From Paracoccus isoporae (GTDB lineage: Bacteria > Pseudomonadota > Alphaproteobacteria > Rhodobacterales > Rhodobacteraceae), in assembly GCF_900101865.1 (NCBI RefSeq), contig NZ_FNAH01000002.1:248001-312000 (forward strand): a stretch of 64,000 nucleotides of DNA, read 5' to 3'. Numbering within the stretch: position 1 is the first letter of the stretch; every line of letters begins with the position of its first letter. A program made the translations under genes and the position numbers. Below the pieces are notes generated by a model. The model saw only the letters and a program-made list of their open reading frames with translations. It was not told the origin of the DNA and did not search any database. Positions 49,631 to 62,054 of this stretch are shown in pieces.

Positions 49631-50266
49631 TCACCGGTTCTGAAGCCCCATCCGCGTGGCATGCCAGGCGGCCTCGGCGCGCGAGCCGATGCCCAGCTTG
49701 CGATAGATGATCTTGATGTAACCGGCCACCGTCGTCTCCGCGATGCCCATGATCTGCGCCACCTCACCATTGCGCAGCCCGCGTGCGATCAGGCTCAGCA
49801 CCTCGCTTTCACGCTCGGTCAGATGGGCGGTGGGCTCGGCGGCCGGGCCGGTATGGCGGAAATGATCCATGATCCGCCGCGCGATCGCGGGCGACAGCGC
49901 CGGCAGGCCGTGGGAAAGCTGGCCGAGCTGATGGATCAGCACCGCCTCGGCATTCTCCTTCAACAAATACCCGTCTGCCCCGGCCGAAAGCGCGGCGACA
50001 ACGCTGGCATCGTCGCCCATCACCGTCGTCACCACGCAGATCGCGGCGGAGGATTTGGCCCGCAACTGGCGCAGCACATCGAGGCCCGAGCCATCGGGCA
50101 GACCTAGATCGATCAGCGCCAGGTCGAGCGGCCGCTCGAGGAGGCGCTGTGCAGCGCGCACCGAATCCGCCCCGGAAATCGCGGCCTCGGGAAAGGCCCG
50201 CGCGGCGATGTCGCTCAGCCAGGCGCGGGTCTCGGCGATGTCCTCGACGATCAGAACATGCTTCAC
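49631..50266 (-). CDS. Two-component response regulator, NarL/LuxR family
   Basis: Regulator of 211 residues: receiver domain with phosphoacceptor D53 (ALIDLGLPDG), acidic E8/D9 and the conserved Lys in YLLKENA, then a LuxR-type helix-turn-helix (LTERESEVLSLIARGLRNGEVA) at about 147-205. The GTG at 50266 overlaps the kinase stop in a GTGA; the longer in-frame ATG at 50359 lies inside the kinase gene and would add a non-homologous basic stretch. Targets are unknown; the Slam-lipoprotein pair on the other side of the kinase gene is the nearest candidate. Confidence 0.9.
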   Translation of the reverse strand: MKHVLIVEDIAETRAWLSDIAARAFPEAAISGADSVRAAQRLLERPLDLALIDLGLPDGSGLDVLRQLRAKSSAAICVVTTVMGDDASVVAALSAGADGYLLKENAEAVLIHQLGQLSHGLPALSPAIARRIMDHFRHTGPAAEPTAHLTERESEVLSLIARGLRNGEVAQIMGIAETTVAGYIKIIYRKLGIGSRAEAAWHATRMGLQNR

Positions 50267-52449
50267 GGCTGGGCCTTTCTGTCGGCTGCGCTGAGCGGCA
50301 GGGTGGCGGAGAGCCTTGTCCCCTGCGCGTCGGTCTGAACCGAGAAGCTGCCCTGGCATTGCGCGACCCGCTCGCGCAGATTGACGAAGCCGTTGCCGGG
50401 CCGGATGTGGTCCGGGTCGAATCCCGACCCGTCATCGGCTAGCAGGAGCGACAGCGCCGCCTCGGCACCCGTCCCGCTGGCGGTGATGCGGATCATGGCC
50501 GTCCCGGCCCCGGCATGGCGCAGAAGATTGCTGACCCCTTCGCGCAGGAACGCCCGCAGCGTATGGGCGCGGCGCGGCGACAGGCTGACGCCGGGCGGGG
50601 CCTCGGCCTGCCAGTCGAGCGCCAGGCCCGCCGCGTCCAGATGGTCGGCAATCTCGGCGCGCAGATCGGCCAGGAGCCGCGCCAGATCCCAGCTTTCATG
50701 CGCCGGGTTGGAGATGATCTCGCGCAGATCGGACAGGGTCTGACGGATCAGCAGGTTCTTGCGCTCCACCCCGCTCGAATGCAGCGCGCTGAGCAGCAGC
50801 ACCCCGATATTGTCATGCATGTCGCGATTGATGCGCCCGCGCTCGGCGTTGACTGCGTCGCGATAGGTGCGGTGCTGGTCGATGGCGCCGCCGATCACCC
50901 CGGCCAGGCGGCGGCTGGCGTTCAGATCGCGCGAGGAAAACAGCCGCCGCCCCTGCATCGCCCATTGCAGGCGGATCGCCGGCAGGTCGTCCACCGCCGG
51001 AAACACCATCCCCTCGCCCTCGCGCTCCAGCACCGCGGCCGGCCGTGCCTCCTGCAGCACGGCGACGGAGAGCGGGTCGAACCGCCTGCGCAGCAGCGTG
51101 CACAGCCGCGCGATGCGGGTATCGCGGTCCTCGGCCTGGGCGATCTCGGTGATCTCGGTGAACATCGCCTCGGCCGAGGGCGGGTTCTCGCGCCGGAGCC
51201 AGCCGGACATACGGCGGCGGACCGGCAGATAGACGATCGCGACGAGCGCAAGCGACGCGGCCAGGGCGGCGGCGTGATCCAGCGACAGCACCATCACCAG
51301 CACCGCGTCCTGCCCCAGCATCATCCCCATGCCGAGCCCGTAGAAGAGCAGCCGGAACGACCAGTCGGTCAGGTCGAATAGCCGGTACCGCATCACACCG
51401 AGGCCGAGCCCGGCATAGATCACCAGGAACAGCAGGAAAGCGGTGCTCTGCGCCAGGATCGGCGGCTGGCCGATCAGCACCGGCACGATGACCGTCAGCA
51501 CGAATCCGCCCGCGCCGAGCGCGATGGACAGCCCGAACCAGCCCAGCATCGCGCGGGCGCGCGGATCGCGCCGGTTGACCCAGACCTGCACCGCTAGCGC
51601 CGCCAGCAGAACCAGCATGGCCAGCGCGACAAGACCCTGCAGCATGGGTACGAAGCGGGGCCATTGAATGAACTCCATCCAGATGATCGCGGCCGAGATC
51701 ATCAGCGCGGGCAGGGCGGTCAGGGCTCCGCGCACCAGCCGGCGCGGATAGATCAGGAACAGCGTGACCATGCCGATGCCGAAGGTCATCGTGCCGATCC
51801 CGTTGATGCGGCTGGCGGTGCCGAAGACCGGCAGCGACAGCGCCAGTTCGCGGCTGCTGTACAGCGCGGCCGCCTGGGCGGCCAGGGCCAGCCCCAGACC
51901 GGCCAGCGACAGCATCCAGGCCGCCGGGTCATGCAGGCGCAGCGCCAGCACCCAGGCCCCGAACCACAGCCCGGCCAGGGCCACCAGCAATTGTGTCCAG
52001 AAGGCGATGGGCAGATCGGATAGCGGCCGCACCGGCACGGGCGTCACCACCAGGTTCATCGGGTCGGAGCCGGTGCCAGTGGCGTAAGTGATCTCGACCT
52101 CGCCGCCCGACAGCGCGCTGTGCAGCGCGGATTGCCGGGCGAAGAACCCCGACATCGCGCCGCCCGACCCCAGCATGTCCGGCTCTTCGATCAGGTCGGC
52201 GGCACGCAGCGCGACCGGCGCCCCGCGCTGCGGCGCGATCTGCAGGATCTCGGCACCGGCGGGCAGGGCGCGGGACGGCCCGGCCGGGTCCACGGACAGC
52301 GCAACCGCACGCCCGGTGTCCGGATCGCCGTGCAGGCTGACCCCCAGCCAGGGCTGGCTCAGCGCCAGCCACAGCAGCAAGGCCGCATTCAGCAGCCCCA
52401 GAATGACCGCCGTTGTCAGCACCGTTCCCGGGGCGATCAGCTTGACCAC
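50263..52449 (-). CDS. Membrane sensor histidine kinase with PDZ-like domain (ComP/DesK-like)
   Basis: Sensor kinase of 728 residues. Order: one membrane segment (about 8-30), a periplasmic PDZ-like domain (LGVSLHGDPDTGRAVALSV then LPAGAEILQIAP), about eight further membrane segments (about 155-400), a linker, and a HisKA_3 kinase core with phospho-acceptor H545 in NRDMHDNIGVLLLS. ATP-binding motifs include DDGSGFDPDH and NGFVNLRERV. I prefer the GTG at 52449 because GGGAGG lies six bases before it; ATGs at 52482, 52506 and 52623 are longer alternatives without a good site. The layout resembles Bacillus ComP. The signal is unknown. Confidence 0.85.
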   Translation of the reverse strand: MVKLIAPGTVLTTAVILGLLNAALLLWLALSQPWLGVSLHGDPDTGRAVALSVDPAGPSRALPAGAEILQIAPQRGAPVALRAADLIEEPDMLGSGGAMSGFFARQSALHSALSGGEVEITYATGTGSDPMNLVVTPVPVRPLSDLPIAFWTQLLVALAGLWFGAWVLALRLHDPAAWMLSLAGLGLALAAQAAALYSSRELALSLPVFGTASRINGIGTMTFGIGMVTLFLIYPRRLVRGALTALPALMISAAIIWMEFIQWPRFVPMLQGLVALAMLVLLAALAVQVWVNRRDPRARAMLGWFGLSIALGAGGFVLTVIVPVLIGQPPILAQSTAFLLFLVIYAGLGLGVMRYRLFDLTDWSFRLLFYGLGMGMMLGQDAVLVMVLSLDHAAALAASLALVAIVYLPVRRRMSGWLRRENPPSAEAMFTEITEIAQAEDRDTRIARLCTLLRRRFDPLSVAVLQEARPAAVLEREGEGMVFPAVDDLPAIRLQWAMQGRRLFSSRDLNASRRLAGVIGGAIDQHRTYRDAVNAERGRINRDMHDNIGVLLLSALHSSGVERKNLLIRQTLSDLREIISNPAHESWDLARLLADLRAEIADHLDAAGLALDWQAEAPPGVSLSPRRAHTLRAFLREGVSNLLRHAGAGTAMIRITASGTGAEAALSLLLADDGSGFDPDHIRPGNGFVNLRERVAQCQGSFSVQTDAQGTRLSATLPLSAADRKAQP

Positions 52450-52508
52450 AGGCCACCTCCCGACGACCGACGCCCGCAGCATGCAGGCTAATCTTCTGAT
52501 AATCATGC

Positions 52509-52514: not shown

Positions 52515-52610
52515 CATCTCCCCACCCCCTGAACAGGGGGGCGACGGGACGCGGCCCGTAGCGGAAGATAGCCCATGCCCCCGAGACGGGGCGATGACTG
52601 GAGTGAGGGA

Positions 52611-53333
52611 ATGCGCAAGACACAGATGGCGAAGCTTTTCGCGGCGATGCTGGCGGTGACGGCCCTGGCCGGCTGCCTGGGCAGCAACAGCAGCAATAAT
52701 GGCGGCGGTGGCGGCGGTGGTGGCGGCGGCGGCGGACCGAAGCCTGCCAAGCCGTCGGATTACCAGGCCGCGCTCGATGCGGTGCAGGCCGAGGCGCCCA
52801 CCGGCGACATGCCGACGCGGATCAAGGCCGATTACAGCGGCCAGCTCCGCGTCGAGGGGCGGCGCACGAATTCGCCCGATCTCGTCGGCACCGCGTATGG
52901 CGACGTGAATGTGAAGGTGAACTGGACAGATGGCCAGCCGGCCAGCCAGAACCCGTTCACCGGCACGATCTCCAATATCTCCGGGACGCTGGTGCCGGGG
53001 CAGAAAGGCGACATCTCGGGCGAGCTGAAGGTCGATCCGAAGATGGGTCCGGCGATCGGGCGGGTGGTGCTGGACACCTCCAAGCTGCCGAAGATACCGG
53101 GCGTGCCGGCGGTGACCGCGGCCAGCGGTTCGGCGGCAATCCCGATGTCGGGACAGCTTCAGGTGGACGGCAAGTCCTACGACACCAACCTGACGCTGGG
53201 CGGCGCCTTCTTCGGCAAGGGCGGCAAGTCCATCACCGGGCCCGCCGTGGGCGGCATAAGGGAGGTCGGCTCCAAGAACCCGGCGCTGTTCGACGGGGCC
53301 CTGACCGGGGATTACTATCTCAAGAAGAAATGA
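52611..53333 (+). CDS. Putative Slam-dependent surface lipoprotein (TbpB-like barrel)
   Basis: Lipoprotein of 240 residues. The signal ends in a lipobox, ALAGC, with lipidated C22. A linker of Ser/Asn and twelve consecutive Gly (residues 31-42) follows. The C-terminal half, with alternating strands such as SGQLQVDGKSYDTNLTLGGAFFG and a final GALTGDYYLKKK, looks like the small 8-stranded barrel of TbpB/HpuA-type Neisserial surface lipoproteins. GGAGTGAGGG precedes the start. The next gene, overlapping by 4 nt, is a Slam-type translocator, the usual partner that displays such proteins on the cell surface. Ligand unknown; iron or haem carriers are typical in the family. Confidence 0.72.
   Translation: MRKTQMAKLFAAMLAVTALAGCLGSNSSNNGGGGGGGGGGGGPKPAKPSDYQAALDAVQAEAPTGDMPTRIKADYSGQLRVEGRRTNSPDLVGTAYGDVNVKVNWTDGQPASQNPFTGTISNISGTLVPGQKGDISGELKVDPKMGPAIGRVVLDTSKLPKIPGVPAVTAASGSAAIPMSGQLQVDGKSYDTNLTLGGAFFGKGGKSITGPAVGGIREVGSKNPALFDGALTGDYYLKKK
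52701..52736 (+). repeat. Twelve-codon glycine tract
   Basis: Twelve GGN codons in a row encode the flexible linker after the lipidated Cys. Such trinucleotide tracts can change length by slippage, in steps that keep the frame. Confidence 0.7.
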
Positions 53334-54673
53334 CTCCCCGCCCGATCGGCGAGGGACATCTCCGGGCCGGACGGGGTGCGACCGGCCCGGCCCGGAGACG
53401 CAGCGGGCCGGCCGGGTTGTTCCGGCTGGCCGTTGCGTTGGTGGTGACGGGGTGGATGAGCCTTCTGCCCGCCGCGGCCACGGCCGAGCCCCTGTCGCCG
53501 CCAACCGCCAGCGGCGCGGGACAGGGGCTCGGCACAGGCACATCCGATCAGGCGCAGGCGCTGCGCGAGGAAATCGCGCGCCTGGCCGCCGCGGGTCGGC
53601 TGCGGGCGATGATCCCGCTGCTCGAACGGCTTCTGAGTCTCGACCCCTCCGACGGCCCGGCGCGGCTGCAACTGGCCACCGCCCTGGCCGAGACCGGGCA
53701 GGACGACCGCGCCCGGCACCACTACCGCATGGTGCGGGGCGCGCGCGATCTGCCGCCCGAGATCCGTGACCACGTGGACGCCAGCCTCGGCGCGCTCGAC
53801 CGGCGCCGGAACTGGGAAGGATATTTCCGCTTCGCCACCATCCGCGAGACCAACCCCGCCCAGCAGACCGAGGTGACCGGCTTCACCCTGGGCGGGCTGG
53901 ATTACGTCATCCGCGAGGCGGATCGGGCGAAACCGGCCCAGGGGGTGGATGTCGGGCTTGGCGTCGCGCTGTTGCCGCCGCTCGCGCCGGATCTGCGCGC
54001 CCGGCTGGGCCTGCGCCTTGACGCGCAGATCTTCGACGGCGACGCCCCTGACGACGTGACCGCGCGGCTGTCCGCCGGCCTGCTGCGCTTTGCCGATCGG
54101 GGCCAGCGGTTCAGCGTCGAGATCTATGGCGCCGAGCGGCGACTCGACGACGACCCCTATACGCGGACGCGCGGGGTGGAGCTGGCCTATTCGCGGATGC
54201 TGGGGCAGCGCAGCGCCGCATATCTGCGCCTTTCCGCCGAGCGCGAGGACCATGTGGGCACGCCGTTCCATGTCGGGACCCGCGCCGCGAGCCTGACCCT
54301 GTCGCGCGTCATCAGCCCGCAATTGAGCGTTTATGGCGGGCTGCGGCTGGAAGGCCGCCAAAGCGGAGATCCGGGTCTCGCCGGCGCCGGCGCCTCGGTC
54401 AGCCTCGGCGGGCAATACCAGTTCGAGGGCGGCTACCGGCTGGGCCTGACCCTGTTCCATGAGCGCAACCGCTATGACGGCCGCCACGCGCTGTTCGGCA
54501 TCCCGCGCAAGGACCGCCGCAGCATCGTGACCCTGCAGATCGGCAACAGCAACCTGTCGCTCGGAGGCTTCTCGCCCACGCTGAATCTCGGCTATGAGCG
54601 GCAGAGATCCACCATCCCGTTCAATCGCTACCGAAACCTGACCGCGTCAATCGGGCTGACGCGGGAGTTTTGA
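53330..54673 (+). CDS. Slam-type surface lipoprotein assembly modifier (DUF560)
   Basis: Outer-membrane protein of 447 residues. Order: signal segment (LFRLAVALVVTGW... ATA), a short TPR-like helical periplasmic region at about 75-160 (REEIARLAAAGRLRAMIPLL, ARLQLATALAETGQDDRARHHY), then a beta-barrel from about 165 to the end with a terminal Phe (IGLTREF). This two-part layout and the closing NRYRNLTASIGLT are those of Slam proteins, which move specific lipoproteins through the outer membrane. It starts in an ATGA overlap with its likely client gene. Slam biology is described chiefly in Neisseria and relatives, so an alphaproteobacterial pair is of interest. Family call fairly sure; client match inferred. 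Confidence 0.75.
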   Translation: MTPRPIGEGHLRAGRGATGPARRRSGPAGLFRLAVALVVTGWMSLLPAAATAEPLSPPTASGAGQGLGTGTSDQAQALREEIARLAAAGRLRAMIPLLERLLSLDPSDGPARLQLATALAETGQDDRARHHYRMVRGARDLPPEIRDHVDASLGALDRRRNWEGYFRFATIRETNPAQQTEVTGFTLGGLDYVIREADRAKPAQGVDVGLGVALLPPLAPDLRARLGLRLDAQIFDGDAPDDVTARLSAGLLRFADRGQRFSVEIYGAERRLDDDPYTRTRGVELAYSRMLGQRSAAYLRLSAEREDHVGTPFHVGTRAASLTLSRVISPQLSVYGGLRLEGRQSGDPGLAGAGASVSLGGQYQFEGGYRLGLTLFHERNRYDGRHALFGIPRKDRRSIVTLQIGNSNLSLGGFSPTLNLGYERQRSTIPFNRYRNLTASIGLTREF

Positions 54674-55000: not shown

Positions 55001-55732
55001 ATGACCAAAATAAAAATAAGTGACGCAATGCAGGAACTCAGCAAATATTCACATCCCGCTCTTGCGGTCGATATCGTTGCCTTGTGCGTCCGGGATGCGG
55101 GACTCCACTGCCTGCTCATCCGGCGCGTGGATATTGATGTCGTTGGCGGTGACTGGGCTCTGCCCGGCGCCTTTGTTCACAAGGGGCAGCCCCTTGAAGA
55201 GGCGATTGGCCGAGCGGCGCAAACCAAGGCCGGAATAGGCGACCTTCATCTCGAACAATTGGCGGTCTACGGTGATCCGGGCCGGGACCCTCGAGGTCAC
55301 GTCGTGTCGATCGCATGGCTGGCCATCGCGCCGGAAGCCGCCTTCCGAAGCCGGATGGCGGCGCGGCATGATCTGACGCTGGCGCGTGTCCAGATGGACG
55401 AGAACCATACTTTCCGTGCCATCGTGACGGATGAGGCCGGAGCCCCGATGCGACTGGCTTTTGACCATGAGGCCATTCTGGCGGATGCGGTCCGTCGGTT
55501 GCGGGCGAGAATAGAATACGGACCTGTCGGCTTTGCCTTCCTGCCGAAGCGCTTCACCCTGCGAGATGTGCAGGAGGTCCATGAGGTTGTTCTCGGACGG
55601 TCGCTGGCCAAGCCGGCTTTTCGGCGCAAGCTGCTGGATCACCATCCTCTTCGCGCGACCGGGGAGCATGAAACCGGGCACGCATTCCGACCGGCAGAAT
55701 TCTATGAGCTCGACGGGGACAGCCAGTCATGA
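55001..55732 (+). CDS. NrtR-like regulator with degenerate Nudix domain
   Basis: Protein of 243 residues. Residues about 20-160 form a Nudix fold (ALAVDIVALCV, LLIRRV, WALPGAF), but the Nudix box at 56-79 is dead: where REuxEExG is expected, the sequence has R71-A72-A73-Q74-T75-K76-A77-G78, so all three metal-binding Glu are missing. Residues about 165-240 match the winged-helix C-terminus of NrtR regulators (GFAFLPKRFTLRDVQEVHE, FRRKLLDHH). NrtR proteins bind ADP-ribose and repress NAD-related genes. Its stop overlaps the first glycohydrolase gene (ATGA), so it probably controls this operon in response to ADP-ribose. The start may instead be the ATG at 55028; neither has a strong ribosome-binding site. 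Confidence 0.82.
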   Translation: MTKIKISDAMQELSKYSHPALAVDIVALCVRDAGLHCLLIRRVDIDVVGGDWALPGAFVHKGQPLEEAIGRAAQTKAGIGDLHLEQLAVYGDPGRDPRGHVVSIAWLAIAPEAAFRSRMAARHDLTLARVQMDENHTFRAIVTDEAGAPMRLAFDHEAILADAVRRLRARIEYGPVGFAFLPKRFTLRDVQEVHEVVLGRSLAKPAFRRKLLDHHPLRATGEHETGHAFRPAEFYELDGDSQS

Positions 55733-56676
55733 CCACAGATCCCTGTCTCCACGATATCGCCGACAGGTGCAGAGGCGCCTTGATGGGACTCGCCGTGGGT
55801 GATGCGCTGGGTGCGTCGGTTGAAACCCTTGCTGAGAGCCGGTTTGCGCCGGTGACAGGCTATCTCGCGGGCGGGTCTTTCCGGCATCCGGCAGGGGCCT
55901 GGACCGATGACACAGCGATGGCCCTGTGCCTTGCAGACAGTCTGGCAGAAACGGACAGGTTTGACGCTTCGGACCTTCTGTATCGCTTCTGTCGTTGGGC
56001 AGAGCTCGGCGAAAACACTAGTACAGGAGTTTGTATCGGAGCGGGAAAGAACACATTGCGGGCTTTGGGGCAATTCCGGCGCACCGGAAGCCTCGAAGCC
56101 CCGCATTTTGGGCGCCATGGAGACGGAAACGGGGCATTGATGCGTCTTGCACCCGTTGCGATCCGTTTTCGGGATGAACCCGCGCTTGCCGTTGCCGTAG
56201 CCGCGCTTCAAAGCCGCACCAGCCATGCTTCAAAGATCTCGGAAGCCTGCTGCGCATTTGCTGCCGACCTGATGCGGCGGCTGATTCTGGGCGACCCATG
56301 GAAAGATGCCATCGATGCAGCATACGGATCCGCGAATCCGGCTGTCAGGTTGCGTCTGTCCGAAGCGTTGCTGAGTGAGAAACCGCCAAGTACCGGTTAT
56401 GTCGCCGATATGCTGCAAGCCGCGATATGGGCGACTGCCGGTTGCGGTACATTTGCGGATGCGGTTTTGCTGGCGGTCAATCTTGGCGGGGATGCCGACA
56501 CGATCGGCGCTGTCACAGGGCAGATCGCCGGCGCCCGCTGGGGTTATCTGGCGATTCCGCAGGAATGGAGATCCGAACTTGTCCTGGCCGACAATGTGCT
56601 GGCGGCAAGTGAAAGGCTGATCAGCCGAAGGCCAGGCGGCAGACATGGCGTCATCACAACAGGAGCCCGTGCATGA
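55729..56676 (+). CDS. ADP-ribosylglycohydrolase family protein (first copy)
   Basis: Protein of 315 residues of the DraG/ARH fold, which removes ADP-ribose from proteins, nucleic acids or small molecules using two Mg ions. Motifs: GALMGLAVGDALGAS near 16-30, the metal-binding T59-D60-D61-T62 (WTDDTAM), GDGNGALMRLAP at 131-142, and the second metal site GGDADTIGAVTGQ with D255, D257 and T258. All expected catalytic residues are present. The ATG overlaps the regulator stop and its own end overlaps the next gene, both by 4 nt. Codons such as CTT, AAA and GGA are commoner than in core genes, pointing to acquisition. The substrate is unknown. Confidence 0.9.
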   Translation: MTTDPCLHDIADRCRGALMGLAVGDALGASVETLAESRFAPVTGYLAGGSFRHPAGAWTDDTAMALCLADSLAETDRFDASDLLYRFCRWAELGENTSTGVCIGAGKNTLRALGQFRRTGSLEAPHFGRHGDGNGALMRLAPVAIRFRDEPALAVAVAALQSRTSHASKISEACCAFAADLMRRLILGDPWKDAIDAAYGSANPAVRLRLSEALLSEKPPSTGYVADMLQAAIWATAGCGTFADAVLLAVNLGGDADTIGAVTGQIAGARWGYLAIPQEWRSELVLADNVLAASERLISRRPGGRHGVITTGARA

Positions 56677-57374
56677 GGGATCAATTTGTCGGAGATATAG
56701 GCGACTATGCGAAGTACAGCCTGTTCAACACGCTCGCACGGGGCAGAAAAGCAGGCATCGCTTGGTATCGCACCCCGGATCAAGGCGGAACGCATGGTGG
56801 TCATGACAGCTATCTGAATGACCCGAACTGGGCGACATATGACGGAAAGATCTTTGATTGCCTGCGGAAATTGCGGGCCGATGGCGGGAGCAAAATCACC
56901 GCGATCGAGCAGGCGGGCATTCTGAACGCGCAGGCTTTTTCAGGCCGGCTACTGGAATTTGATGCGGGACCAGTTGCTGGCCGCCCGGCTTGGCGCGAGA
57001 CGTGGTTTCAGGGCACGATGTCCGACCTTGCCGATTGCGATTTCGTGTTCGCGGATCCAGACAATGGCCTGTGTCCCGCCGATCGGTTTTCTCCCTCACG
57101 CAAAGAGAACCTGCGGCATATTCCGCTCGCCGAAGCCAGATGTCTCGCGGCGGGACGAACTGCGATGATCTATCACCATCACGGGCGTGTATCCAGGCTC
57201 GGTGAGATCGAAAAATGGCGAACCGCCCTTGGGCCCGAGACGGTTGCGGTTTATTTCGGCGCTTGGGGTAGCCGCAGTTTTTTCGTCGTGAACGCCGATC
57301 AGCAGATGCGTGACGCCATGACAGAATGGGCCCGCCGCTGGCCGAAAACAGAGGTCTTCGATGCCCGCTTCTGA
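56673..57374 (+). CDS. Uncharacterised conserved protein with DPDNG motif
   Basis: Protein of 233 residues, soluble, with no signal peptide or membrane segment. I recognise it as a widespread hypothetical family defined by an N-terminal VGDIGDYAKYSLF (residues 6-18), a WYRTPDQGGTHGGH segment (31-44), FVFADPDNGL with D128-P129-D130-N131-G132 in the middle, and IYHHHGR near 166-172. The conserved acidic and His residues suggest an enzyme, perhaps with a Rossmann-like core, but no reaction is known to me. It is locked between the two ADP-ribosylglycohydrolase genes by overlaps of 4 and 14 nt, so it should act in the same process. Confidence 0.7.
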   Translation: MRDQFVGDIGDYAKYSLFNTLARGRKAGIAWYRTPDQGGTHGGHDSYLNDPNWATYDGKIFDCLRKLRADGGSKITAIEQAGILNAQAFSGRLLEFDAGPVAGRPAWRETWFQGTMSDLADCDFVFADPDNGLCPADRFSPSRKENLRHIPLAEARCLAAGRTAMIYHHHGRVSRLGEIEKWRTALGPETVAVYFGAWGSRSFFVVNADQQMRDAMTEWARRWPKTEVFDARF

Positions 57375-58368
57375 ACACGTGATTCTCAGTTGCCTGCTTG
57401 GTGGCGCCATCGGAGATGCTTTGGGGGCCGAAATCGAATTCTGGTCGCTGTCGCAGATTCGAGACCACTTTCCTGATGGCGTGCAAAATCTTCCCCCGCA
57501 TGATGGCATGGTCGGTGCCATCACCGATGATACGCAGATGACCCTTTTTACTGCAGAGGGTCTGATCCGGGCAGCCGTCCGCCATGAGATGCGCGGTATC
57601 TGTCATCCCGCAGGGGTCATCCACCACGCCCTGCTGCGCTGGCTGGTGACGCAGGGGGAGGCACCGGGTGTCGATGTTGACGATGCCGGGTTGGTCCTTG
57701 ATCGGCGCCTGCACGCCCGACGGGCTCCGGGAAATACCTGCCTCTCCGCTTTGGGCGCGGCCCGGCAGTTTGGAGTTGCCGCACGCAATGGCTCCAAAGG
57801 CTGCGGCACGATCATGCGGGTGGCGCCGACGGCATTCGCTGCTTCCGAGCAGGTTCGTGATCTGGCAATGGAGACATCGGCGCTCACGCATGGTCATCTC
57901 ACCGGACAGGAGGCCGCCGCGGCCTGGGCGTTGATCTTGGCAGATCTGGCGCAGGGCGTGGATCTCGAGGTTGCGGCACGTCGGCAGGAAGGCGCTTTCG
58001 GCCCTGAGACGACAAGAGCCCTTGTTGCGGCGCGAACGGCTCCCCGCGACGCAAGGGCGGAAACCGTGGAAACTCTGGGCGGTGGCTGGGTTGCAGAGGA
58101 GGCCCTCGCCATCGCACTTTATGCCTGCCTTTGCGCATGCGATTTCCAGAACGGGCTTCAGATTGCGGTGACGCATGGGGGCGACAGCGATTCAACAGGT
58201 GCGATTGCCGGGAATGGCCTGGGACTGCTGTTTCCCGAGCAGGTTCAGAACCACCCCTGGGCAAGTCAGGTGGAATGTCGCGATCTCATAAGCGATATCT
58301 CTCGTGATCTTGCGCTGGCGATGTCGGGCAGAGCTGCCGAATTGGCCGAAAGATACCCGGGGCACTGA
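57361..58368 (+). CDS. ADP-ribosylglycohydrolase family protein (second, divergent copy)
   Basis: Second DraG/ARH protein of the operon, 335 residues. Motifs: LLGGAIGDALGAEIE (12-26), T55-D56-D57-T58 (AITDDTQMTLF), GSKGCGTIMRVAP (144-156) and THGGDSDSTGAIAG with D275, D277 and S278. It differs from the first copy in the substrate loop (GCGTIMR against GNGALMR) and in Ser for Thr at the last metal-site position, so the two are not a recent duplication and may act on different substrates or linkages. It overlaps the DPDNG gene by 14 nt and is the last intact gene before the mobile-element remnants. Confidence 0.9.
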   Translation: MPASEHVILSCLLGGAIGDALGAEIEFWSLSQIRDHFPDGVQNLPPHDGMVGAITDDTQMTLFTAEGLIRAAVRHEMRGICHPAGVIHHALLRWLVTQGEAPGVDVDDAGLVLDRRLHARRAPGNTCLSALGAARQFGVAARNGSKGCGTIMRVAPTAFAASEQVRDLAMETSALTHGHLTGQEAAAAWALILADLAQGVDLEVAARRQEGAFGPETTRALVAARTAPRDARAETVETLGGGWVAEEALAIALYACLCACDFQNGLQIAVTHGGDSDSTGAIAGNGLGLLFPEQVQNHPWASQVECRDLISDISRDLALAMSGRAAELAERYPGH

Positions 58369-59967: not shown

Positions 59968-60996
59968 CTATCGCGCCCGGACGGTTTCGACCATCAGCGC
60001 GACATGTTCGGGATCTGCATCGGGGGTGATGCCATGACCAAGATTGAAGATATGCGGCCCGGCCCGGAAGGCTTCGACAATGGCGCGGGTCTCCTCGATC
60101 AGCGCCTGCCCGCCGGTGACCATGTGGCCGGGGGCGAGATTGCCCTGCACGCAGCCATCGGTCTGGACTTGGGCTGCTGCCCATCCTGCATCCACGGAGT
60201 TGTCGAGCGCGACGCAATCCGCGCCGGTCGCTCGGGCAAAGCCTGCATATCTGTCCTTCGCCTCGCGCGGGAAGGCGATGACCGGGACGCCCGGATGGCG
60301 CTGCTTGAGTGCCGCGATGATCTGCCGGGCGGGGGCAACGCAGAACGCGTCGAAATCCGCGCCTTGAAGGCTGCCGGCCCAACTGTCGAAGAGCTTGACC
60401 ACCTCGGCCCCGGCCTCGATCTGGGCCGAGAGATATTCGATCGTCGCCTCGGTGATGCGGTCGATCAGCGCAGAAAACGCAGCGCGATCCGCCTGCTTGA
60501 AGGCGTGGGCCGGGCCCTGATCCCTGGTGCCGCGCCCGGCGATCATGTAGGTGGCCACCGTCCAGGGCGCGCCGGCAAATCCGATCAAAGTGGTCTCGGA
60601 GGGCAATTCGCGCGACAGGATGCGGACCGTTTCATAGATCGGACCCAACGTCTCATGCACCGCGTCCGCGGGCTTCAGCGCCGCAACACCCCCGGCATCA
60701 GTGATGGTGGAGAGACGCGGCCCCTCGCCGGTGACGAACCACAGATCCGCGCCGAGCGCCTGCGGCACCAGCAGGATATCGGCAAACAGGATGGCGGCGT
60801 CGAAGCCGTAGCGGCGGATCGGCTGCAACGTCACCTCGGCCGCGAGATCCGGCGTGTAGCACAGCGACAGGAAATCGCCCGCCTTGGCCCGCGTGGCGCG
60901 GTATTCGGGCAAATAGCGGCCGGCCTGACGCATCATCCAGATCGGCGGGGTCGGCAGTGTCTCGCCGGCAAGTGCGCGCAGGATCGTCTTGGTCAT
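59968..60996 (-). CDS. hemE: Uroporphyrinogen decarboxylase
   Basis: Cytosolic haem-pathway enzyme of 342 residues that removes four carboxylates from uroporphyrinogen III to give coproporphyrinogen III. The N-terminal signature [16 protein letters not shown] contains the substrate-binding Arg residues; [13 protein letters not shown] holds the catalytic Asp; [13 protein letters not shown] and NLGHGITPD are further family motifs. GAGAGGCTCC precedes the start at 60996. It is divergent from hemC, a common arrangement in Rhodobacterales, with an 80-nt shared promoter region. Confidence 0.96.
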
Positions 60997-61076
60997 CGGA
61001 GCCTCTCTTTCTCAGGGCCGTTCAACGCAGCCGGCCCGGCATTGTCAAGGCGAGCCGCCGCCGTTATGGCAGGCGG

Positions 61077-62054
61077 ATGTTTGACTGGCCCAATCCCCAA
61101 GACACGCTGAAGATCGGCACGCGCGGCTCGCCCTTGGCACTGGCACAGGCCGCAGAGACGCGCGACCGGCTGATGATGGCGCACGGTCTGCCGCGCGACG
61201 CCTTCGAGATCGTGGCGATCAAGACCACCGGCGACCGCATCCAGGACCGGCCCTTGCAGGCGATCGGCGGGAAGGGGCTGTTCACCCGCGAGATCGAGGA
61301 TGCGCTGCTGGACCGGCGGATCGACATCGCAGTGCATTCGATGAAGGACATGCCGGTGCTGCAGCCCGACGGGCTGGTCATCGATTGCTACCTGCCGCGC
61401 GAGGATGTGCGCGACGCCTTCGTCAGCCTGGACCATGGTGGCATCGCCGATCTGCCGCAGGGGGCGGTGGTCGGCAGTTCCTCGATGCGGCGGCGCGCGC
61501 AACTGGCCCATCGCCGCCCGGATCTGCAGCTCGTCGAATTTCGTGGCAATGTGCAGACCCGGATGCGCAAGCTGCGCGAGGGGGTGGCGCAGGCGACGTT
61601 TCTGGCCATGGCGGGGCTGAACCGGCTGGGCCGGCCCGAACTGGCGCGCGGCCCGATTGCGCCCGAAGAGATGCTGCCCGCCATCGCGCAGGGCGCCATC
61701 GGGGTGGAGCGGCGGCGCGAGGACAGCCGCATGGCGGCGCTGCTCGACCCGGTCAGCGATGCCGACACGGTGCTGCGCGTGGCGGCGGAGCGGGCGTTTC
61801 TGGCCGCGCTCGACGGCTCCTGCGAGACGCCGATTGCCGGGCTGGCGGAGTTGAGCGGGGACCGGCTGCATCTGCGCGGAGAGATCCTGCTGCCCGACGG
61901 CTCGCAATGTTTCAGCGGCGCGCGCGAGGGGCTGGCGGTGGACGGCCCGGCCATGGGCCGCGACCTGGCGGAGGAGCTGCTGGCGCGCGCGCCCGAAGGC
62001 TTCTTCGAACTGATCGGCATCAGCCCGCATCGCGGCTCGCCACCGGGGGGCTGA
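61077..62054 (+). CDS. hemC: Porphobilinogen deaminase (hydroxymethylbilane synthase)
   Basis: Cytosolic enzyme of 325 residues that joins four porphobilinogens into hydroxymethylbilane. Visible: KIGTRGSPLALAQA near the N-terminus, HSMKDMP with the catalytic Asp, GSSSMRRRAQL, EFRGNVQTRMRKL, and DGSCETPIA with the Cys (about residue 248) that holds the dipyrromethane cofactor. The start at 61077 has AGGCGG just upstream; the frame is open to 60957 but that part overlaps hemE. A TetR gene follows with a one-base overlap (TGATG). Confidence 0.96.
   Translation: MFDWPNPQDTLKIGTRGSPLALAQAAETRDRLMMAHGLPRDAFEIVAIKTTGDRIQDRPLQAIGGKGLFTREIEDALLDRRIDIAVHSMKDMPVLQPDGLVIDCYLPREDVRDAFVSLDHGGIADLPQGAVVGSSSMRRRAQLAHRRPDLQLVEFRGNVQTRMRKLREGVAQATFLAMAGLNRLGRPELARGPIAPEEMLPAIAQGAIGVERRREDSRMAALLDPVSDADTVLRVAAERAFLAALDGSCETPIAGLAELSGDRLHLRGEILLPDGSQCFSGAREGLAVDGPAMGRDLAEELLARAPEGFFELIGISPHRGSPPGG

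Follow-up and report, generated by a model that had tools for sequence, protein, structure and literature searches.

When, and with what cargo, do alphaproteobacteria use exporters of the Slam family to place lipoproteins on their surface? The question is raised by a stretch of 64,000 nucleotides from Paracoccus isoporae (assembly GCF_900101865.1, contig NZ_FNAH01000002.1, positions 248,001 to 312,000 of the forward strand; hereafter the window), for which an earlier note, made from the sequence alone, had proposed a Slam translocator and its client lipoprotein encoded by overlapping genes. The pair stands divergently beside a two-component system, and the gap between them holds a palindrome that is a candidate operator; neither had been mentioned in the note. 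We think it probable that the four genes form one surface-display cassette, which a sensor kinase with a PDZ domain would switch on through an operator of its own. This reading draws on gene content, conservation, fold predictions and a palindrome present in a single copy in the genome.

Both open reading frames of the pair lie where the earlier note had placed them, and the lipoprotein stop and the start of the next gene share four bases (ATGA, at 53330-53333). The second protein, of 447 residues, bears out the proposed Slam/DUF560 architecture. PF04575 (SlipAM) matches residues 162-447 over the full profile (1-288 of 288) with 73.8 bits against a cut-off of 22 (E 2.2e-20), so the search of the barrel against Slam profiles that the note had recommended was positive; the same profile matches all 16 aligned homologues. 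TPR_19 reaches 28.9 bits (cut-off 25), and TPR_Slam (PF24575) reaches 16.1, under its cut-off of 35.2, with E ≤ 0.01 in 7 of the 16 aligned members. A sequence search of the PDB with the protein and its alignment returned matches to the TPR region and no Slam barrel among the matches listed. The protein is the sole SlipAM match in its 3.52-Mb genome. Within the genus, SlipAM exceeds its cut-off in 3 of 125 genomes, and the other genomes give at most a partial match to this Slam; a first scan of genome contigs with the single Slam sequence found no relative. The pairing is more than chance, because homologues of both proteins adjoin in other genomes: a lipoprotein homologue lies directly upstream at nine of ten named Slam loci. 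The ten include loci of Szabonella, Rhodalgimonas, Roseinatronobacter, Oceaniglobus and Pseudotabrizicola, which are Rhodobacterales, and one in a record that bears an actinomycete name.

The first gene of the pair, adjacent to the slam gene, encodes a protein with a lipobox (LAGC) ending at Cys22 and a Leu at +2, read by eye without a signal-peptide program, and a Gly-rich linker after it; Cys22 is invariant across 15 aligned sequences. The protein has no Pfam match, and slam_lipo (NF041636, NCBIfam) gives 18 bits, below its cut-off of 80. Among the 15 aligned members, slam_lipo matches seven and TbpB_B_D weakly matches two (best E 0.0079). PDB sequence searches with the lipoprotein or its alignment yielded mostly Gly-rich-linker matches or unrelated chains. 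Structure prediction, which the note had advised for residues 90-240, gave a single barrel: the AlphaFold model, built from ten sequences (pLDDT 80.7; residues 1-42 under 50), has a short helix and nine strands within residues 70-239, the strands making up one barrel of the eight-stranded TbpB type (nine strands listed), with no separate effector domain. The TbpB-like terminal barrel that had been claimed is thus present in the predicted structure and absent, at significance, from sequence profiles. Foldseek put the LbpB N-lobe at the top of its list (E 1.2e-3), with HpuA in fourth place (E 0.03). When VIA-align re-examined the 1000 chains that Foldseek had ranked best, NHBA was the closest surface lipoprotein by fold (Z 10.3, 16% identity), followed by TbpB and fHbp (9.5), LbpB (8.7), hemophilin (8.6) and HpuA (8.5). 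The SlipAM partner, the predicted barrel and these structural matches together support a client-like lipoprotein. It is quite improbable, in our view, that the lipoprotein stays in the periplasm and that its Slam-family partner has another export substrate or a role in outer-membrane assembly. NHBA gives this alternative some footing, being exposed in E. coli irrespective of Slam1 according to the available part of one report (PMC5500766); the four-base overlap, the conserved adjacency of the pair and the SlipAM match in all 16 aligned partners argue the other way.

The two-component system is linked to the pair well beyond this genome. The kinase is found at the same nine of the ten named loci as the lipoprotein, and the regulator at eight of the ten; one contig (L051) ends inside the kinase gene, and one locus (L056) has neither lipoprotein homologue nor kinase. 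The window and the named loci share a divergent order. Among 394 genomes of the family, Slam occurs in 43 (E ≤ 1e-8) and the kinase in 28 (E ≤ 1e-20); the two occur together in 16, where 3.1 would be expected (p 3e-10 by Fisher's test, a guide only, related genomes being non-independent). Their coordinates place them side by side in 15 of these 16 and on different contigs in the other (G218), and profile searches add two further neighbours (G481, G385). Gene order itself varies: kinase, regulator, lipoprotein and Slam follow one another in a row at L099, L100 and L101, the arrangement is convergent at L103, and Slam, kinase and regulator stand in a row at L199 and L200. Because the linkage outlives rearrangement, kinase and Slam probably share a function. 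The same persistence counts against an alternative that we hold to be unlikely, in which the pair is an ordinary Slam and client, the adjoining two-component system serves some other purpose, and the palindrome acts as a hairpin in the leader RNA of the lipoprotein gene and not as an operator.

Slam relatives also appear in 23 plasmid records, 16 of them from Sulfitobacter. In four of the seven records inspected, all four genes form a compact block among unrelated-looking neighbours (L196, L197, L198, L201); two have Slam, kinase and regulator with no lipoprotein of the family and no site, and one lacks the kinase. When plasmid DNA was searched with the window locus, only the purine-gene side of the query matched, among the matches listed; guanine deaminase was found in all 26 genomes of the genus that were searched.

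The kinase, whose start we set at the ATG at 52506 (the mechanical open reading frame extends to 52623), has a first transmembrane helix (TM1), a PDZ domain lying between TM1 and TM2, further hydrophobic segments and a kinase region, the helices being called by Kyte-Doolittle only. The best Foldseek PDB matches of the PDZ stretch are PDZ-bearing Prc, CTP and HtrA proteases, four of them with E ≤ 0.001, and a DegS chain is among the 50 matches listed. By sequence, PDZ_6 matches 1 of 18 aligned kinases (E 6e-6), and the stretch found one insignificant match in the PDB. HisKA_3 and HATPase_c are each recognized in 16 of the 18; the window kinase itself scores 16.7 bits for HATPase_c_2, below the cut-off of 27.4, and has partial UhpB/NarX-type matches below cut-off. 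The regulator carries the recognition-helix motif AGYIK.

In the divergent gaps of the window and the nine other loci, a palindrome CCCCCTG-WW-CAGGGGG is followed by GNGAC (10 of 10 with at most two mismatches, these being the gaps from which the palindrome was first read). It is exact in eight, with one mismatch in L047 and two in L053. Its 7-2-7 spacing is that of NarL sites. When 12 divergent loci are aligned, columns 1-21 are strongly conserved save column 18, and conservation falls afterwards; column 41 is A in 10 of the 12, within a -10-like hexamer 17 bp after GNGACG. With the two hexamers in Table 1 taken as the promoter, the centre of the palindrome would fall near -43.5, about where class II activators bind. 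In the window's own genome (3.5 Mb), the 14-bp core occurs once, and the 16-bp form has one exact site, none with one mismatch and 11 with two; a reversed control gave 10 matches, and the two-mismatch sites are at chance level. The four later-fetched plasmid loci with all four genes carry the palindrome at the same place, exactly in one and with two mismatches in the other three, which are close relatives.

The presence of the site also follows the type of kinase and regulator. A site with at most two mismatches lies no more than 350 bp from the start of the kinase or the lipoprotein in 22 of 24 loci whose kinase has a WLG motif, a count that omits L153, L157, L159 and L163 (repeats or fragments of genomes counted elsewhere) and becomes 21 of 23 when L047 and L170, the same contig, are counted once. 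It is found in 4 of 14 loci whose kinase is without the motif, a class that includes L101 and, owing to its over-long open reading frame start, L169, and in 1 of 22 Slam loci without a kinase (two mismatches). Where a site lies near by, the recognition helix reads xxYIK, with Tyr, in 22 of 24 rows, the exceptions L101 and L110 having His; where none does, the residue is His in 8 of 10. These rows drop L157, L159, L163 and L170 and count L110 with the site for its two-mismatch copy; L053, L197, L198 and L201 are close relatives and so non-independent. The residue presumably falls in the DNA-contact region of NarL. The palindrome thus varies along with the regulator's recognition helix.

Table 1. 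Features of the proposed cassette, in window coordinates
Feature	Coordinates	Strand	Description and support
NarL/LuxR-type response regulator	49631..50359	-	Receiver PF00072 58.1 bits; GerE helix-turn-helix PF00196 59.1 bits; overlaps the end of the kinase gene; the two-component system spans 49631-52506
Sensor histidine kinase	50263..52506	-	TM1, PDZ (probably periplasmic), several further transmembrane helices, HisKA_3-like and HATPase region
TM1, PDZ domain and beginning of TM2, as modelled	51976..52428	-	AlphaFold pLDDT 94.1; Foldseek
Palindrome CCCCCTG-AA-CAGGGGG (7-2-7), candidate operator of the regulator	52525..52540	.	Conservation, copy counts, covariation with the recognition helix
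-35-like hexamer GCGACG	52541..52546	+	Column conservation; GAGACG in 6 of 12 divergent loci compared
-10-like hexamer GAAGAT	52564..52569	+	Column conservation; 17 bp past the -35-like hexamer; some homologues have GATAGT or AATAGT
Lipoprotein, predicted Slam client	52611..53333	+	240 residues from ATG 52611, stop ends at 53333; signal peptide, lipobox Cys22, Gly-rich linker, short helix, single barrel
Slam/SlipAM (DUF560, type 11 secretion) outer-membrane protein	53330..54673	+	ATG 53330, stop ends at 54673; PF04575, TPR_19; signal region, TPR, barrel ending in Phe

These counts bear on the RNA hairpin. The palindrome is foldable as an RNA stem, and its core turns up in 28 family genomes without a detected kinase; yet the leader folds no better than its shuffles (z -0.89), the site accompanies 1 of 22 kinase-free Slam loci as against 22 of 24 loci with a WLG-motif kinase, it changes along with the recognition helix, and one genome (G352) has a copy on the kinase contig, 1.2 Mb away from the kinase, ahead of two further family lipoproteins. 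In another (G493), a remote copy precedes one such lipoprotein. No Rfam family was found within 49-56 kb of the window, and a search of the open-licence literature for the palindrome found nothing relevant. Across the family, the 14-bp core occurs in 40 of 394 genomes, 12 of which have the kinase (2.8 expected, p 2e-6); a reversed-core control matches 7 of 394, and the scan is only partly specific.

On our reading of the cassette, the kinase would sit in the inner membrane, read a peptide or protein C terminus in the periplasm and phosphorylate the NarL-type regulator. The conservation around the palindrome suggests that the regulator would bind it, just upstream of the promoter-like hexamers, and activate the lipoprotein-slam operon. 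The lipoprotein would be lipidated at Cys22 and carried to the outer membrane, where the Slam-family protein, to judge from its family and its genetic coupling to the cargo, would move it to the cell surface. There it would present a single barrel on a flexible glycine-rich linker, the loops being the likely working part.

Several observations weigh against this reading. Some concern the site: a sigma-70 consensus scan found no promoter, which leaves column conservation as the sole basis for the hexamers; at L099 and L100 the four genes are all present, with neither site nor WLG motif; L110 combines a two-mismatch site with a His regulator; and L085 and L090 have a PDZ-motif kinase and no site. 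Other points concern copies of the palindrome elsewhere. Remote copies in G407, G456 and G448 adjoin no lipoprotein of the family, an exact copy in G352 (L089:3615) is found at a lipoprotein gene's 3' end, copies in G476 precede other secreted-looking proteins, and 28 of the 40 core-positive family genomes have no detected kinase. L110, L099, L100 and the remote copies without a lipoprotein weaken the reading slightly. The kinase and the pair also part company. Four lipoprotein-Slam loci (L105, L106, L108, L109) have neither kinase nor nearby site, so kinase control is not required for the pair; PDZ-motif kinases stand without an adjacent Slam in L085-L090; kinase-regulator pairs occur with no Slam in the stretch in L085-L090 and L093; and the kinases adjoining other Slam relatives (L091, L092, L098, L199, L200) have a shortened region and no WLG motif. 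Finally, none of the Foldseek matches of the lipoprotein reaches E 0.001, and membrane barrels (a designed one, OprF, PagL, OmpX and Ail) score Z 10-11, up to 11.1, at 3-9% identity. The modelled fold agrees with those of Slam clients without singling them out, which the gene context does.

What might the kinase sense? The PDZ domain is best read as a sensor of a peptide, and we favour pheromone sensing over export sensing a priori, since L085, L087 and L093 have this system without a Slam and next to other proteins that look secreted. The cassette reading can be given a named signal, in that the kinase may be a peptide quorum sensor like ComP, with display at high cell density or on contact; we offer this tentatively, as a possibility with well under even chances. 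The system has the layout modelled for ComP (PDZ between TM1 and TM2, many transmembrane helices, a kinase region) and a LuxR-type partner, and in G476 it faces several secreted-looking proteins. On the other side, the annotated neighbours of the four plasmid cassettes look unrelated, in records where no search was aimed at peptide-precursor genes. There is, we think, a small chance that the kinase monitors export instead, its PDZ domain binding the C terminus of an untranslocated client or an unassembled Slam, which would make the cassette a closed-loop controller of display that acts through a single genomic operator.

Some loci show the parts of the system in other company. One contig (L165 and L087, contig C2 of G476) carries five exact copies of the palindrome beside a PDZ kinase and regulator, without a Slam or cargo-family lipoprotein. 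Three of the copies stand a short way upstream of genes for proteins with a signal-peptide-like start; here the switch seems to act on other secreted proteins. In L085 and L093, kinase-regulator pairs are divergent from very large open reading frames, one of 1834 residues, which runs off the end of the stretch, and one encoding an RTX-like repeat protein. L092 and L098 have a Slam relative and a kinase of the same family missing most of the PDZ region, and between the two lies a longer Gly-rich lipobox protein of another type. At L088 (G160 C84), the kinase gene is broken by an in-frame TAG, beside a cargo-family lipoprotein and an exact palindrome, with no adjacent Slam. The record of L053, titled Enemella evansiae TN21-6 (an actinomycete), holds a cassette that closely resembles the ones in Ponticoccus and Sagittula, at coordinates equal to those of G126, a genome of the window's family, and its title may be wrong. 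On a plasmid of Salipiger sp. CCB-MM3 (L202), a gene annotated as transferrin-binding-protein-like adjoins a Slam-like TPR protein, without two-component system or palindrome.

The earlier note had supposed a ligand other than the host-iron-binding kind, which is possible. No TonB receptor was found among the 13 neighbouring proteins scanned with Pfam. Two haem-biosynthesis genes, for URO-D (-) and porphobilinogen deaminase (+), lie at 59971-62051, 5-7 kb downstream of the pair, and hemF adjoins Slam in two Sulfitobacter plasmids (L199, L200); the cassette may therefore have an iron or haem link, and the proximity is possibly chance. Between the cassette and the haem genes, at 55001-58368 (+), are an NrtR-like NUDIX regulator and two ADP-ribosylglycohydrolase genes flanking an unmatched protein of 233 residues, with a GC content of about 0.59-0.62 against 0.65-0.72 upstream; this is possibly a separate acquired block.

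For alphaproteobacterial Slam or type 11 secretion system (T11SS) display, a conserved linked sensor and a candidate operator present once in this genome give an experimental handle on timing and cargo. If confirmed, the system would bring a Slam operon under dedicated two-component control, as a compact unit of four genes that both chromosomes and plasmids carry, and the linked sensor and rare control site would offer a way to approach why environmental bacteria keep such exporters.

How does this cassette compare with known systems? Slam relatives with adjacent lipoproteins have been predicted in alphaproteobacteria, and lipoprotein genes were reported in 185 of 353 Slam loci across Proteobacteria, with TonB receptors in 120 of those 185 (Hooda 2017, PMC5449769, available part). 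Slam relatives and adjacent barrel lipoproteins have likewise been predicted in marine Rhodobacterales, in Rhodobacteraceae/Roseobacteraceae, in the available part of Grossman 2025 (PMC12282271). Taken alone, the pair is thus a new member of an already published kind, Rhodobacterales pairs having been published as predictions. The nearest published loci, the Rhodobacteraceae cluster 3 T11SS loci, share a Slam-family protein and barrel lipoprotein; the accessible portion of that paper gives them syntenic thymidylate synthase (thyX), lactoylglutathione lyase (gloA) and DUF1194 genes and clients of 282-375 residues (PMC12282271), whereas the window client has 240 and none of the three neighbour kinds is among the 13 scanned. 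The main text of that paper (PMC12282271), in the part available, makes no mention of histidine kinase, two-component, response regulator, PDZ or LuxR, and titles and abstract starts among the matches listed in the open-licence literature hold no link of Slam to a two-component system.

Neisseria Slam1 and Slam2, with TbpB, LbpB, fHbp and HpuA, resemble the window in the SlipAM barrel with an N-terminal TPR region and in the adjacent barrel-fold lipoprotein. They differ in that the window client is essentially one barrel, with no separate handle domain in the model, that the 13 scanned neighbours include no TonB receptor, and that a PDZ two-component system and candidate operator are linked to the pair. 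DegS is a PDZ sensor of the C termini of unassembled outer-membrane proteins; it is alike in using a PDZ domain in envelope signalling, and a DegS chain is among the structural matches, whereas the window PDZ belongs to a histidine kinase with no protease domain. ComA, the partner of ComP in Bacillus, is a LuxR-type regulator. A PDZ domain between TM1 and TM2 has been modelled in ComP of Bacillus amyloliquefaciens (PMC9620489), and a PDZ kinase of the same layout has been reported from Streptococcus mutans NCTC11060 (PMC3353171), each in the part of the source available. The window kinase shares with both the PDZ placement and a polytopic membrane domain, here with a LuxR-type regulator; unlike ComP-ComA, the system is Gram-negative, stands beside a surface-lipoprotein export operon and has a candidate operator of its own. 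The cassette with its PDZ two-component control is what differs from known Slam pairs, and is the less expected part of this locus.

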